The translations under genes and the position numbers were made by a program. The notes under the pieces are model-generated. The model did no database searches. It saw only the letters and a list, made by a program, of their open reading frames with translations, and was not told the DNA's origin. Below, in pieces: positions 3,170 through 10,453 of a DNA stretch of 22,243 nt. The stretch is from a virus: IMG/VR virus record IMGVR_UViG_3300032296_001137, positions 1-22,243 of that record. One strand, 5' to 3'. Each line of letters begins with the position of its first letter. Position 1 is the stretch's first letter.

Positions 3170-3814
3170 TTAGAACTCGTCTTCCTCGTCAGCGCGCGGC
3201 GCCTTCTTAGGCGCAGGCTTTGCAGCCGGTGCTGGCGCCGGAGCTGCTGCGCTGCCCTTCGCCTCATGCTCAGCGAAAGCTTCCGGCGGCGCAACCCAGC
3301 CGACGAGCTTGCAAGTCGGAGCCTTGAAACGCAGCTCGCCTTGCGGCGTCGAAACTTTGACAGTCTCGGTGCCGGAGAACTCGATCACCGGCATTTTGCC
3401 TTTGTTGTCGCCAGCCTCAGCAATAAACTGATCGTGAAGCTGGTCGATCACCCGCATGACGGTCTTGCTGGTCGGCGTGAACTCGCGAAGTCCATGCTCT
3501 TTGAAAAAGAGCTTCAGGGAAACGGCCTGCTTGTGATCGGCCGAAGGCTTTGCGGGCATTTTCTCGCCAGCCGGAGCGAGGGTCGCCGAGTAGGTAGGAG
3601 CAAACGTGATCCAGCCAACGGACAAGTTGGCGAAGTCGGCGACTGCCTTAATCGGCAGGTCGATTTCAACCTCCACCTTATCCCAGCTACCGTCGCCTTG
3701 CGGCTCCCGGTTCACCGCAATGAAGTCGCCCGCTTTCGCGTCGAACTTCACAACGGGAAGAAACTTTCCCCCACCAGACGATCCACCGCCATCGAAGTTG
3801 ATTCCCAATGCCAT
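3170..3814 (-). CDS. single-stranded DNA-binding-like protein with acidic C-terminal tail
   Basis: The product is about 214 residues from the chosen ATG at 3814. The ATG six bases upstream (3820) is too close to the GGAG site, whereas 3814 gives about 7 bases of spacing. The body (residues about 15-170) looks beta-rich with alternating hydrophobics. A flexible Ala/Pro/Lys linker follows (AAPAPAPAAKPAPKKAP), and the tail ends in DEEDEF. A folded body, flexible linker and acidic tip ending in Phe is the layout of bacterial and phage SSB proteins, whose tip recruits partner enzymes. Its place between a RuvC-like resolvase and a primase-helicase supports a role coating single strands. No clear OB-fold signature is readable by eye, so the assignment is by architecture and context. 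Confidence 0.6.
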   Translation of the reverse strand: MALGINFDGGGSSGGGKFLPVVKFDAKAGDFIAVNREPQGDGSWDKVEVEIDLPIKAVADFANLSVGWITFAPTYSATLAPAGEKMPAKPSADHKQAVSLKLFFKEHGLREFTPTSKTVMRVIDQLHDQFIAEAGDNKGKMPVIEFSGTETVKVSTPQGELRFKAPTCKLVGWVAPPEAFAEHEAKGSAAAPAPAPAAKPAPKKAPRADEEDEF

Positions 3815-3855
3815 TGCCATACTCCATGTTTTGCCACTGATCCCCGTGGCCGGGA

Positions 3856-4095: not shown

Positions 4096-4556
4096 CTTTG
4101 CGCTCCCCACCAAGCCATCAACGCCGCATCGGCGCGCCCATCGTCTTTCTTGCGCGAGAACATATGCGCGTAAGCCGGAAACAGCTCTGCCGCGCGCTGC
4201 CTGTTCCCGTCCTTGCCGCTCCGCGCGTTGACAGCCTTCTGCCACCCAGCTGGCGAGATGTATGTGACAGGGACGTCGAGCGCCGACAAGATACCTTCCA
4301 GCATCCCAACGCCCCTGCCGAACTGAAACATGCTGCTTACGCCTTGCCCCGGCATCGCGCCGACAATCTCCAGGATAGCGACGCTAGGGTTCCGCGCTTT
4401 GATGATCGCCGCCAGCATTTGCGGGCTGATCTCAGTCTTCAACTTCTGCCCGCGTTTGACCTCGACGGTTGGCGTGTCGATTAGCTCCAGCGTCCCCTGA
4501 TCTGGACGAAAGAACGCAAGCGCGCCTTTGGCGCCGGGGTCGATTGCGAGGATCAT
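4092..4556 (-). CDS. RuvC-like Holliday junction resolvase
   Basis: A 154-residue RNase H-fold nuclease. It opens with the RuvC motif ILAIDPGAKGAL (catalytic Asp6), then has ILEIV (Glu63) on the second strand, and ends with KDDGRADAALMAWWG, which supplies Asp139 and Asp143. These fit the acidic metal-binding set of RuvC. The QFGRGVGMLEGIL segment near residues 78-90 is also typical of phage and bacterial RuvC proteins. It would cut branched DNA made during phage recombination or replication before packaging. The ATG at 4556 overlaps the stop of the HTH gene (ATGA 4553-4556), and its TGA overlaps the next ATG. Length is slightly below the 170-odd residues usual for host RuvC, as is common in phages. 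Confidence 0.9.
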   Translation of the reverse strand: MILAIDPGAKGALAFFRPDQGTLELIDTPTVEVKRGQKLKTEISPQMLAAIIKARNPSVAILEIVGAMPGQGVSSMFQFGRGVGMLEGILSALDVPVTYISPAGWQKAVNARSGKDGNRQRAAELFPAYAHMFSRKKDDGRADAALMAWWGAQR

Positions 4557-4771
4557 TTCTTACCCACCAACTCGATCTGCAATTCCAGCGCAGCCGCATA
4601 AGCCAGCGCCGTCTTGACGTTCATGTTCTTGTCGTCGCGCGCGTCGATCAGGCTCCAAGTTGACGGCGAAACGCCGGCTTCCTTGTTGACCTTGCGCTGC
4701 GAATACTGGAGCTGCTTGCGCTGCTCATTAAACAGCGCGAACAGATGCTCAGAACTTTCAACCTTAGTCAT
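4553..4771 (-). CDS. small XRE-type helix-turn-helix protein
   Basis: The 72-residue product is essentially one XRE/Cro-like HTH domain. Helices run from residue 10 onward, with YSQRKVNKEAGVSPSTWSLI as the helix-turn-helix core and a closing hydrophobic helix (ALAYAAALELQIELV). The ATG at 4771 has one of the strongest ribosome-binding sites in the window, AGGAGG seven bases upstream. A 59-bp gap separates it from the nuclease gene before it. It probably regulates transcription of the DNA-metabolism genes, but no operator repeat was found. An antitoxin-like role cannot be excluded, although no partner toxin is adjacent. Confidence 0.75.
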   Translation of the reverse strand: MTKVESSEHLFALFNEQRKQLQYSQRKVNKEAGVSPSTWSLIDARDDKNMNVKTALAYAAALELQIELVGKK

Positions 4772-6811: not shown

Positions 6812-7135
6812 TCAGTCTCTCCCAAGGGCTTCTTTGGCTCTCCAACCGCAGTAGTCCTGGTCTTGCCAATCTTTAGAACATAGCGTCTCACATTCGCAGG
6901 CGTACTGACGCGCCAGTTTCTTGTGCTTCTCATAAAGCTCAAGGTATCTGTCATAGTCTGACAGTCTTGAGAGCCGGATCATCGCTAGTTCTTTTTTCAA
7001 TTCTCTCACATCGCGCGTCGCATAGCGCAGCGCAAAGTAGACATGGCAAATGTCCTCATAAGTGATCGACTGCACATTATCTGGACAGTTATACATCTTC
7101 CGCATGATCTCAAGCGGCTCAAGATCGTCGTTCAT
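6812..7135 (-). CDS. hypothetical protein with C-terminal Cys cluster
   Basis: The 107-residue product starts MNDDLEPLEIMRK and has a long charged helix (residues about 40-78, including RDVRELKKELAMIRLSRL). It ends with four cysteines at 80, 82, 86 and 96 (CECETLC then YCGW), which could hold a metal ion. Two further cysteines lie at 17 and 30. The start overlaps the GapR-like gene's stop as ATGA (7132-7135), so it is probably coupled to that gene. No family is recognised. A helical body with a small metal-binding tail suggests a protein- or nucleic-acid-binding adaptor, but that is only a guess. Confidence 0.65.
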   Translation of the reverse strand: MNDDLEPLEIMRKMYNCPDNVQSITYEDICHVYFALRYATRDVRELKKELAMIRLSRLSDYDRYLELYEKHKKLARQYACECETLCSKDWQDQDYCGWRAKEALGRD

Positions 7136-7410
7136 TCGACACCTTTTGCGCGCTCGATGCTGGCTTGTCCAAGCGGAGTATCCGCCAGCATCCCAAGCGC
7201 AGACATATAGGTGTCAATTAGAGCCTGCTCTTCAGCGAGCTTGGCTGAGTCCTGCTTGCGCATAGCTACAACCCTCTTCAGCGCCTTCGCGTCGAAGCCA
7301 AGAGATTTGGCTTCTGCGTAAATGTCCTTGATAGACAAGCGCAACTCGTCGCGCTCGTCCTCCAGCTTCTCGATGCGCTGGACGATGCTATTCAACTGGT
7401 TGTTGATCAT
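7132..7410 (-). CDS. gapR: GapR-like DUF2312 nucleoid-associated protein
   Basis: The 92-residue product matches the DUF2312/GapR family across its length. Residues 10-30 read VQRIEKLEDERDELRLSIKD, followed by IYAEAKSLGFDAKALKRVV and MRKQD. The tail LIDTYMSALGMLADTPLG is also family-like. In Caulobacter, GapR forms tetramers that clamp overtwisted AT-rich DNA and stimulate gyrase and topoisomerase IV. A phage copy could relieve supercoiling ahead of phage forks or compete with the host protein. The ATG at 7410 follows GGAGG with suitable spacing. It overlaps the DUF6378-like gene by 23 bases, and its TGA overlaps the next ATG. The match rests on the motif pattern as remembered; the function in phage is inferred. 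Confidence 0.88.
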   Translation of the reverse strand: MINNQLNSIVQRIEKLEDERDELRLSIKDIYAEAKSLGFDAKALKRVVAMRKQDSAKLAEEQALIDTYMSALGMLADTPLGQASIERAKGVE

Positions 7411-7726
7411 TGGGTTCCTCCACGCGGGTGGTTTCCATTACCCTTTCCATGTGCAATTCACGGTCACTGCGCTCAAGCTCACTCACGACAAGCATGGCGT
7501 AGCCCGCAATGTCCAGCCAATGATCGCGCGCCCGCGCGTTGCCGGCCAAGATGCGGGCCTGTTTCATCGAGATCATGTCCAAGGCTTCAGCCATGTAGAA
7601 CTCCAGGTCGTTGTAGAACGAGCTAGACTTCAGCGTGTGCTTCAAGTCTTGGGACATTTTGGAGACGTACCGATAGTCTCCATGCGACTGCGCGCGTTGC
7701 TTAATGATGTCATTAACGGCGTTCAA
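7388..7726 (-). CDS. DUF6378-like phage protein
   Basis: The 112-residue protein has the layout I associate with DUF6378. An early helix carries QRAQSHGDY at residues 10-18, and a second helix has EFYMAEALDMISMKQARILAG followed by ARDHWLDIAGYAMLV at about 66-80. The His-Trp-x-Asp-Ile-Ala-Gly-Tyr core is the clearest sign. This helical arrangement also recalls MazG-like nucleotide-binding folds, but the family's reaction is not known to me. Translation starts at TTG (7726) behind AGGAGG, a strong site. The start overlaps the stop of the DnaA-domain gene by 14 bases. The C-terminal 25 residues, outside the domain, are charged and probably disordered. Confidence 0.75.
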   Translation of the reverse strand: MNAVNDIIKQRAQSHGDYRYVSKMSQDLKHTLKSSSFYNDLEFYMAEALDMISMKQARILAGNARARDHWLDIAGYAMLVVSELERSDRELHMERVMETTRVEEPNDQQPVE

Positions 7727-8108
7727 CGTAGCCTCCTCTTCTTAGGGCATGTAAGATTGACGTATGGTCGCGGTTGCAGAAGCGGCCAATCTTCGACAAA
7801 GACCAGCCGCGCCTATACAGATACCCGTATATTTCGCGCCGAACAGCGTGCGTGGGTTGAAGGCGAGAATGGTTAACAACAAGAGCCCATGTGGCTTCGT
7901 GCCTAATCAGGACAGCAGTTAGATCGTCTTTCAACTGCGGATCAGCGATAGGCGGAAGACGCGGGACGCGCTCCTCGACTTCCTTTTTCGGCTCAATATG
8001 AACAAAAAGCCTCAATTTGGGCTCTGGGGCTTTTTGCTTAACGGCAGCAGAAACCATCCGCTGACGCGCTTCTTTCCATTTCTGGTGATATTCATTGACT
8101 AGGTTCAA
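7713..8108 (-). CDS. DnaA domain IV-like DNA-binding protein
   Basis: About 131 residues from a TTG start. The C-terminal part (residues about 88-125) is a DnaA domain IV-type helix-turn-helix: VRREIYGYLYRRGWSLSKIG and then NRDHTSILHALRR, where RDHTSILH matches the DnaA signature that contacts DnaA boxes. The AAA+ ATPase of true DnaA is missing, and the N-terminal 85 residues are a charged, Pro-containing region without a domain. TTG at 8108 is preferred: it overlaps the preceding TGA (ATTGA) and follows TTGGAGAT. A more upstream ATG at 8141 would overlap the previous gene by 37 bases. It may bind DnaA boxes on phage or host DNA, as an origin or regulatory factor. No perfect DnaA box was seen here. 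Confidence 0.8.
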   Translation of the reverse strand: MNLVNEYHQKWKEARQRMVSAAVKQKAPEPKLRLFVHIEPKKEVEERVPRLPPIADPQLKDDLTAVLIRHEATWALVVNHSRLQPTHAVRREIYGYLYRRGWSLSKIGRFCNRDHTSILHALRRGGYVERR

Positions 8109-8299
8109 TGGTACATCTCCAACAGACGTGACTGCGCCCATCCGAGACTGCGAGCATAGCAAAGCTGGCCGTGAACGCTCACGGCTCGATAGGCGCGCTC
8201 ATTGTTGTGCTTGATACGGCATTTATTAACGTAGCCGACGACCTTGCCCATGTAGAAGCAGGTCCACGTTCCATCTTCATTCTTCGTAAGCTGAACCAC
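8105..8299 (-). CDS. small hypothetical phage protein behind a hairpin
   Basis: The 64-residue product begins MVQLTKNEDGTWTCFYMGKV. The pattern suggests a small beta-rich fold with an aromatic hairpin, followed by a basic helix (KCRIKHNNERAYRAV). No family is recognised. Translation starts at GTG (8299), eight bases after GGAGG. That Shine-Dalgarno lies inside the 3' arm of a perfect hairpin (8304-8334), so expression is probably controlled by RNA folding. It is the first gene after the structural block and heads the small early-type genes. Its TGA overlaps the TTG of the DnaA-domain gene. Confidence 0.7.
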   Translation of the reverse strand: MVQLTKNEDGTWTCFYMGKVVGYVNKCRIKHNNERAYRAVSVHGQLCYARSLGWAQSRLLEMYH

Positions 8300-8303
8300 G
8301 GGC

Positions 8304-8334
8304 TCTCCCTCCGCGAATCATCAACGGAGGGAGA
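8304..8334 (-). promoter_or_regulatory. hairpin that sequesters a ribosome-binding site
   Basis: On the minus strand TCTCCCTCCG (8334-8325) pairs perfectly with CGGAGGGAGA (8313-8304) around an 11-base loop. The second arm holds the GGAGGG Shine-Dalgarno of the GTG gene at 8299, and the first arm is its exact complement. It lies in the 66-bp gap that separates the last structural gene from the early block. No T-tract follows in the leftward direction, so a translational switch or an RNA end/processing element is more likely than a classical terminator. Confidence 0.6.
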
Positions 8335-8365
8335 TTGCCTGATTTCTAAGATTAGCGCAAGGGGC

Positions 8366-10453
8366 TTATTGGCCCAAAAGACCAGGGATGGTTAATCCCA
8401 GCCCTTGCGCCTCTAGCTCGCGCTTTCTTGCGCCAGCGAGTATCTGGTTCAGCATCATGTCTCTTTCGGCGCCCTGAAGAGACATCGCCTGCGCGATCTG
8501 GTTCTGGATATTCATGTTGGAGCTTTGCGTTGCTCCACGAAGCATCCTCTGACCGAGGTTTGCCGCAAGACCAGTAAGCGTAGCGCCAGTCGGAATAGTC
8601 CTGCCGGCCGTTTCCTCAAGATACTGACGAGCAAACGTAGTCGGAGCTGTTCTAGACCCAGCAACCGTCTGGCCGTAGGTTCTGGCGAATGTCTGCTCGC
8701 GCTCGATGGCATTAACCATACGATTAACGGCATCCTCACCGAACATCTCAACCATCTTGGTGCGGTTCCAATCAGTTTCGCCGCCAAGCGCCCTGCGAAG
8801 TTGAGGAAGATCGTTTACCTGAGTACCTACGGCGCGCTCAATCTCACCGCGTGCGCCTTGAACGATTTGCTGGCGAGCCTCTCCACCGCGAGCTTCAAGA
8901 GCAGCCTTGAAACGATCAGGCCAGAGAGCCTCTTTCCCACCAGCAAGCGACTGCGTGCCAAGCTCAACGCTTTCGATCTGCCGGCTGATGCGAGAGAAAG
9001 CATCATTTATTTTCTCGTAACCGGGAACCTTTAAAAGAGTATTGTTAAGCTCATTGATTACCTGCTTAGCAGCGCCTTCCTTCTTGGTGATTGCACCAGG
9101 CTGAACGCCTATCGTTGGGTTGCCAAAATCTATCAGGTTTTGAAGAGTGACCTTAGCGTCGTGAATTTTCTGCGCATTAGTCTCCAGCACCTCTGGCGTC
9201 GGAGGCGTGGCAGGAACATCGCGATAGCGAATTATAGACCCAGTGCTGGGATCAACGACTGGCTCTCGCCGGGCAGGCGATCCAGGCTTGGCAGGAGATG
9301 CGATAAGGTTTTCTCTTGCCGATCTAAGAGCTGCAGCCTGCGGGCTGTTTTTTGCAGCCGCAGAAATAAGCTCATCAACACGATTTACAACATTTGATAC
9401 GTCTAACTTTGGAGCGGCATCCCAAACGTCTGTATAAAGAGGGCTAAGATTTGATCTTGCCTCTTTCAAAGCCTGCGCGACTTCAAGCGGGTCTTTTGCC
9501 TTGCCAAGAGCAGCCTGAGTATCAACAGCCAGACGCGCCGAACGAGCAGCTTCGCGCGCCGTCAAAACGTCTTTCATGGCTTGAGTGCCAGGGCCAGGGG
9601 TTGCCGCACCCTGAGCTATAGACGTCATAGACGGTCCAATATCCGCCAACGTGGCCTCTGGACCAAGTTGAGCAAGACGCGCCCGCGCCGCTTCTGGCCC
9701 CTCCCACGCAACGCCCTGCTCCATCAAACGCTGCCCGCGCTGGGGCATTTGCTGGAACGGAGACATGGGCGCGCCAGTTGCGCGGCGATACATATCAGCA
9801 AGACCGCGCGCAATAGCGGAACCACCGGCAAATCCGCCAGTAAGCGCGCCGCCAAGAGCAGCGCCGGGAATGGCGCCGGCAACCGCGCCGGCTGCTTTAT
9901 CTGCGACCCCGCCCGTGTAAGTTTCCGATGCGCCTTGCAATCCACCCCAAATGCCGCCCTCAAAAGCGCCAAGAGCAGTTTTACCTACCCCGCCAACGCG
10001 AGGACCAAACGCGGCAAGTGGAGAAAGCCCCAAACGCATGGCTCCGACAGCCGGAGCCATAGTACCGGCCGCAGACATGGTTCCAGAAATAACGGGACCA
10101 ATGTTCTTAGCTGCCTGCTCAGTCTTGGCGACTTCTTCCTTCAGCGCCTGATCGTAAGAAACCTCGCCCAGCGTCGAGCGCGCAAGCGCGGACAGGCGGT
10201 CGTAGTTCCCAATCGTGGCGCCCTTGGCGAATTGGCGCGCCATCGAGCCAGCAGACCTTTCAATCTGCTCACCATATGGCATTGAGGTTTGCGGCGCAGC
10301 AGCCTGCATCATTCCAGTGGGAACGCCCATCGGGTCAAAGGCGAGAACCTGCGGCTGTTCAGCAGCGGGGGGCGCAACAGGCTGGCCCCTCTCCCACCAT
10401 TTCTCACGCTTTTGATCCTCAACGATCGGGGAGCTTTCCCACCAATTTGCCAT
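8366..10453 (-). CDS. large putative ejection/internal virion protein
   Basis: This 695-residue protein is the last of the structural block. Its N-terminus has two Trp-rich repeats, NWWESSPIV and KWWERGQPV, within the first 26 residues. Residues about 110-215 are Gly/Ala-rich and amphipathic to hydrophobic (GAVAGAIPGAALGGALTGG), like glycine-zipper segments of membrane-inserting proteins. The rest is mostly helical, with a Pro-containing segment (SPAKPGSPARREPV) near the middle and a Gln/Met-rich end. It is similar in size and position to P22 gp16 or T7 gp16-type proteins that leave the virion with the DNA and cross the host envelope. The ATG shares one base with the preceding stop (TAATG). 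No catalytic motif is seen. The role is inferred from composition and neighbours. Confidence 0.72.
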   Translation of the reverse strand: MANWWESSPIVEDQKREKWWERGQPVAPPAAEQPQVLAFDPMGVPTGMMQAAAPQTSMPYGEQIERSAGSMARQFAKGATIGNYDRLSALARSTLGEVSYDQALKEEVAKTEQAAKNIGPVISGTMSAAGTMAPAVGAMRLGLSPLAAFGPRVGGVGKTALGAFEGGIWGGLQGASETYTGGVADKAAGAVAGAIPGAALGGALTGGFAGGSAIARGLADMYRRATGAPMSPFQQMPQRGQRLMEQGVAWEGPEAARARLAQLGPEATLADIGPSMTSIAQGAATPGPGTQAMKDVLTAREAARSARLAVDTQAALGKAKDPLEVAQALKEARSNLSPLYTDVWDAAPKLDVSNVVNRVDELISAAAKNSPQAAALRSARENLIASPAKPGSPARREPVVDPSTGSIIRYRDVPATPPTPEVLETNAQKIHDAKVTLQNLIDFGNPTIGVQPGAITKKEGAAKQVINELNNTLLKVPGYEKINDAFSRISRQIESVELGTQSLAGGKEALWPDRFKAALEARGGEARQQIVQGARGEIERAVGTQVNDLPQLRRALGGETDWNRTKMVEMFGEDAVNRMVNAIEREQTFARTYGQTVAGSRTAPTTFARQYLEETAGRTIPTGATLTGLAANLGQRMLRGATQSSNMNIQNQIAQAMSLQGAERDMMLNQILAGARKRELEAQGLGLTIPGLLGQ

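Follow-up and report, generated by a model that had tools for sequence, protein, structure and literature searches.

A conserved hairpin that pairs the Shine-Dalgarno sequence of the first early-type gene of a phage genome and may block its translation on read-through mRNA

All genes considered here lie on the minus strand of the window (the whole stretch of DNA that was analyzed, a virus record of 22.2 kb; 22,243 nucleotides). The last gene of the virion or late region encodes a 695-aa protein (Table 1), and the virion-type genes upstream of it encode a Peptidase_S74 protein, a phage lysozyme, and a protein similar to the ‘phage stabilization protein’ of MW202711. On the other side is a region of small genes, the first of which encodes a 64-aa protein that is predicted to comprise five strands followed by a helix (pLDDT 91.5). 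Its function is unassigned, and a fold search returned close structural matches solely to uncharacterized phage proteins. Four bases (TTGA) are shared by the end of the 64-aa gene and the start of the next gene, whose product has a weak DnaA label (PF08299, E 6e-6, under the curated cut-off). Genes coding for a DUF3799 nuclease-like protein and an AAA_25 primase/helicase follow further downstream, and the window shares its gene order with MW202711, a circular phage genome. Judged only from gene content, the two groups of genes would be expressed late and early, respectively. The hairpin described below is located at the border between them, in the position that the original prediction had assigned to it.

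Table 1. Coordinates of genes and sequence features around the virion/small-gene border of the window.
Feature	Position	Strand	Remarks
Last virion/late-region gene, 695 aa, phrog_5880	8366..10453	-	
-35-like hexamer TTGCGC	8355..8360	-	61 nt before start codon; putative promoter element
-10-like hexamer CAATCT	8332..8337	-	17 bp from -35; putative promoter element
Whole helix with outer GGC/GCC pairs	8301..8339	-	GGC 8339-8337 with GCC 8303-8301
5' arm (anti-SD) TCTCCCTCCG	8325..8334	-	Sequence, fold
Predicted transcription start G	8325	-	Last base of anti-SD arm; predicted from spacing
Loop TTGATGATTCG	8314..8324	-	Conserved TGATTC; GANTC site at 8315-8319
3' arm CGGAGGGAGA	8304..8313	-	SD GGAGGG inside, 8307-8312
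First early-type gene, GTG start, 64 aa	8105..8299	-	Small conserved phage protein
DnaA-domain-IV-like HTH protein	7713..8108	-	TTG start overlaps 64-aa stop
DUF6378-like protein	7388..7726	-	Own SD GGAGGC, opening 5.5 kcal/mol
GapR-like protein, PF10073, E 4e-27	7132..7410	-	Own SD GGAGGA, opening 2.5 kcal/mol

GapR is typical of alphaproteobacteria. The GANTC site of CcrM is strongly depleted in the window (9 seen versus ~84 expected), which suggests a host that carries CcrM. Taken together, the GapR-like protein and the depletion of GANTC make an alphaproteobacterial host likely. One of the nine sites in the window is in the hairpin loop and reads GATTT in relatives with zero GANTC; two related contigs (L016 and L017) have no GANTC at all.

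The minus-strand leader that ends at the GTG at 8299 reads CCCCTTGCGCTAATCTTAGAAATCAGGCAATCTCCCTCCGTTGATGATTCGCGGAGGGAGAGCCC-GTG. Within it, the two arms TCTCCCTCCG and CGGAGGGAGA are exact reverse complements and form a perfect 10-bp stem (minus-strand 8334-8304), which confirms the predicted pairing of the Shine-Dalgarno sequence (SD) with an anti-SD; folding puts the cost of opening this SD at 16.8 kcal/mol, the highest among 31 starts tested in the window and compared with 10.5 kcal/mol for the next-highest among starts with a strong SD. The predicted RNA fold of the leader has an energy of -28.7 kcal/mol (z -3.85), which none of 200 shuffled sequences equalled, and places the outer GGC/GCC extension of the helix below an AA bulge; in two relatives (L006 and L007) the outer pairs are CGGGC/GCCCG. 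The 5' arm is shared with the end of the -10-like hexamer and with the promoter discriminator. Perfect 10-bp inverted repeats with a short loop occur at three distinct sites in the window versus 0.7 expected, and in relatives, ~10% of 862 ORF starts that carry an SD have an SD-opening cost of at least 8 kcal/mol. It is the position over a strong SD, not the perfect repeat itself, that sets the hairpin apart.

The stem was also considered as an intrinsic terminator and rejected, since it is followed by GCCCGTGG and not by a U-run, and a terminator scan lists none at the stem. Two further sites in the window feature structure. At 3160-3131 on the minus strand, between the gene at 3170-3820 and the start of the primase gene, GCCCCCGGTGA and TCACCGGGGGC form a perfect stem of 11 bp (loop GGAGAGCT) with no clear U-run. 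The minus-strand start at 4771 of a 72-aa HTH-type ORF has a strong SD (GGAGGT) that is rather buried (10.5 kcal/mol), and the corresponding start in the relative L039 is buried similarly (10.1 kcal/mol).

The 64-aa gene and the same leader were identified in IMG/VR contigs that range from 98% to ~40% protein identity, and also in MW202711. Thirteen further loci of this phage group carry an SD-burying hairpin, and these belong to three clades (type A): a W-type clade, to which the window belongs (L002, L004, L005, L006, and L007), an MW202711-type clade (MW202711/L024, L036, and L050), and an L052-type clade with imperfect stems (L052, L040, L041, L042, and L045). No match was obtained among phage records, whether a 2-kb nucleotide query in distant mode or the 695-aa late protein was used, and among genome contigs a profile search with the 64-aa protein yielded no confirmed relatives and one with the DnaA-HTH protein yielded just distant host or prophage HTH matches.

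In the W- and MW-type stems, two-sided changes occur in five of the ten stem columns and broken pairs in none, as counted over five distinct arm sets in six rows that were placed in pairing register by hand, because a MAFFT alignment across the two types loses this register; a hand register leans toward structure. U-G replaces a Watson-Crick pair in column 8 of L006, column 3 of MW202711/L036, and column 4 of L050. The most telling of the pair-preserving changes is that from L006 to L007, where the SD arm has one G fewer, the opposite arm has C to T and T to C changes at matching places, and a helix with a single bulge remains. Across eight arms, pairing is better between true partners than after exchange of partners (52 of 40,320 permutations were as good, with relatedness not removed). 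Between 0.3% (W) and 59% (L052) of shuffled 5' arms pair equally well; a pyrimidine-rich arm pairs fairly easily with any purine-rich SD, and the covariation draws on few, non-independent sequences. The original prediction had named a lack of base-pair conservation in relatives as grounds for its refutation; in 13 further loci the stem persists, and the changes in its arms preserve pairing. Collectively, the comparison with relatives supports a putative function of the hairpin.

A conserved promoter-like block overlaps the hairpin. In the W-type it reads TTGCGCTAAT-N5-AAATC-N-GGCAATCT, is present in all W-type relatives and, among 2.9 million viral contigs, in those five only, and has a single copy within the window. 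TTGACG replaces TTGCGC at the corresponding position in the MW202711- and L052-type clades, such that all type-A loci feature either TTGCGC-N17-CAATCT or TTGACG-N16-18-CA/CGxxxT, with -10-like hexamers that read CAATCT (W), CAGTAT (MW), and CATAGT or CGTAGT (L052-type) after spacers of 16-18 bp. In the nine W- and MW-type loci, the anti-SD arm ends with a G that is the predicted +1. Sigma-70 promoters of Sinorhizobium read CTTGAC-N17-CTATAT (PMC2573895). The W-type -10 CAATCT is a poor match to the sigma-70 consensus and is invariant among W-type relatives. From this block we infer an early promoter that starts at about G8325; the promoter remains putative because the -10 hexamers are weak and a generic promoter consensus scan found no promoter at the hairpin site. 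Just 5 bp separate the stop codon of the 695-aa gene from the -35-like hexamer, too few to hold a terminator. In the L052-type clade, a strong intrinsic terminator is located immediately upstream of the -35 and would mark the border of two transcription units, as expected.

The hairpin thus lies over the SD, is retained in relatives through pair-preserving changes, and stands at a fixed spacing from a promoter-like block. We consider it probable that it blocks translation of mRNA that reads through from the late into the early genes. A co-directional late mRNA, if it runs into this site, would carry both arms, and with both arms on one RNA the SD of the 64-aa gene would be paired and ribosomes prevented from starting. 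A promoter whose -10 and discriminator form the anti-SD arm would instead start an RNA at about G8325 without that arm and with an accessible SD. Folding predictions for 13 type-A loci are in line with this, with SD opening at 8.0-17.8 kcal/mol in read-through RNA versus 0.2-5.7 kcal/mol in RNA that begins at the predicted +1, which makes opening 5.6-13.8 kcal/mol cheaper; promoter-started W RNA keeps some SD pairing (~5 kcal/mol). These predicted opening costs agree with the claim that a transcript begun inside the hairpin would be open. The original interpretation is supported in part: comparison favors the claimed block on translation of the 64-aa protein, through the conserved stem and the promoter-like block, and the effect itself, including its size, is a prediction. 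The further claim that control extends to the later genes is not supported, because those that start at 7726 and 7410 carry accessible SDs of their own; the DnaA-HTH gene, whose start overlaps the 64-aa stop, could be translationally coupled.

Relatives with a different gene upstream bear on this reading. In L077, L083-L085, L055, L053, L103, L058, and L062, the late gene is separated from the 64-aa gene by a divergent ORF of ~300 aa, and the four of these ORFs that were scanned encode tyrosine integrases (PF00589). These loci keep a -35-like element of the TTGAC- or TTGCG-type and have no SD-burying stem, with SD opening at 3-7 kcal/mol. This absence would fit a role of the hairpin against co-directional read-through. 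A strict link between its absence and upstream orientation is not proven, because there are few clades, a tree built from three short proteins resolves them weakly (between-clade support of 45-68), and the stem is also missing from L158 and L161, which are distant and co-directional. A CTTGACG...CGTCAAG dyad, the first arm of which is the -35 of the promoter, was observed in L077 (~4560-4600), L055 (~4475-4510), and L083 (~4480-4530) and is perhaps an operator. We tentatively suggest that the early -10 and discriminator are dual-coded as an anti-SD strand, which provides insulation where late genes run head-to-tail into the early promoter and not behind a divergent integrase gene. If so, the hairpin would do in RNA the work of physical or terminator insulation and would vary with lytic or temperate gene content.

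The same palindrome could be read as DNA, as an operator dyad over -10 to +22 through which a regulator of phage or host origin would repress or activate the early promoter by binding, with RNA pairing incidental. Its placement directly over the predicted start, the different dyad around the same promoter in integrase-carrying relatives, and the DNA-binding DnaA-HTH and GapR-like proteins encoded just downstream are all consistent with this. However, the one-strand U-G replacements in L006, MW202711/L036, and L050 break the symmetry of the DNA and keep the RNA pairing, the SD is always within the 3' arm, and arm sequences differ between clades where a single binding protein would need shared arms, which together make an operator unlikely. 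It is distinctly unlikely that the element is mainly a stem-loop at the 5' end of the early mRNA, serving stability or as a site for a regulator or ribosomal protein, with SD burial in the W- and MW-types as a by-product of stem drift. A UGAUUC loop does occur between the predicted start and the SD in the type-A clades and also in L103, L058, and L062, where the stem is not over the SD, and the upper stem of the L052-type (AGUCGC/GCGGCU) survives in promoter-started RNA; yet promoter-started W and MW RNAs retain almost no stem, and their stem is precisely the SD/anti-SD pairing.

Chance pairing of a pyrimidine-rich discriminator with the SD, without selected function, would follow if ribosome binding fixes one arm and the promoter the other, and moderately buried SDs are common in relatives. 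Two-sided changes in half of the columns, the coordinated change in L007, an SD burial in the window that is the best in the genome, and the absence of the hairpin from integrase-carrying relatives argue against this, and we regard it as very unlikely. A buried SD is also the usual off-state of switches that act on one and the same transcript, whether RNA thermometers, riboswitches, or protein-controlled elements. At ~17 kcal/mol, opening of the stem costs too much for a thermometer, the hairpin region has no match among Rfam leader and riboswitch families at the gathering threshold, and upstream there is no conserved aptamer-like domain, only the promoter-like block, which would stay untranscribed. 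Such a switch is therefore highly improbable.

A translational block on read-through mRNA has a precedent in phage T4, where the ribosome-binding sites of genes e, soc, 49, and I-TevI are hidden in early read-through RNA, and a late promoter in the DNA of the 5' strand yields an open mRNA that lacks this strand; for gene e the hairpin causes a reduction of ~100-fold (PMC3014915). The hairpin described here resembles the gene e type in that the SD is paired in upstream-extended RNA, here by folding prediction, and in that the pairing is kept in related phages. Where T4 has its promoter in the 5' strand, a conserved -35/-10-like block lies over the arm here, with a weak -10 and no consensus match. 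The timing is reversed: T4 silences early and middle read-through while late genes wait, whereas here early-type genes would be silenced on late read-through. The phage and the genes are unrelated to those of T4, the putative promoter here is sigma-70-like and not of the T4 late type, and the effects are measured in T4 and predicted here. In IS10, IS50, and similar elements, externally started transcripts fold back and hide the ribosome-binding site of the transposase, and the element's own promoter starts inside the fold-back structure; these are mobile-element transposases, not a phage early operon, and are not homologous. Relatives with and without the hairpin make the idea of a dual role directly testable. 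The mechanism would thus be known in kind, with a new place and reversed timing. If this is correct, the read-through block of the T4 lysozyme type would extend to an unrelated group of phages, probably of alphaproteobacteria, in the reverse temporal direction, with early genes silenced on late mRNA, and the hairpin would be a compact example of a short DNA segment that has to be both promoter and anti-SD strand.
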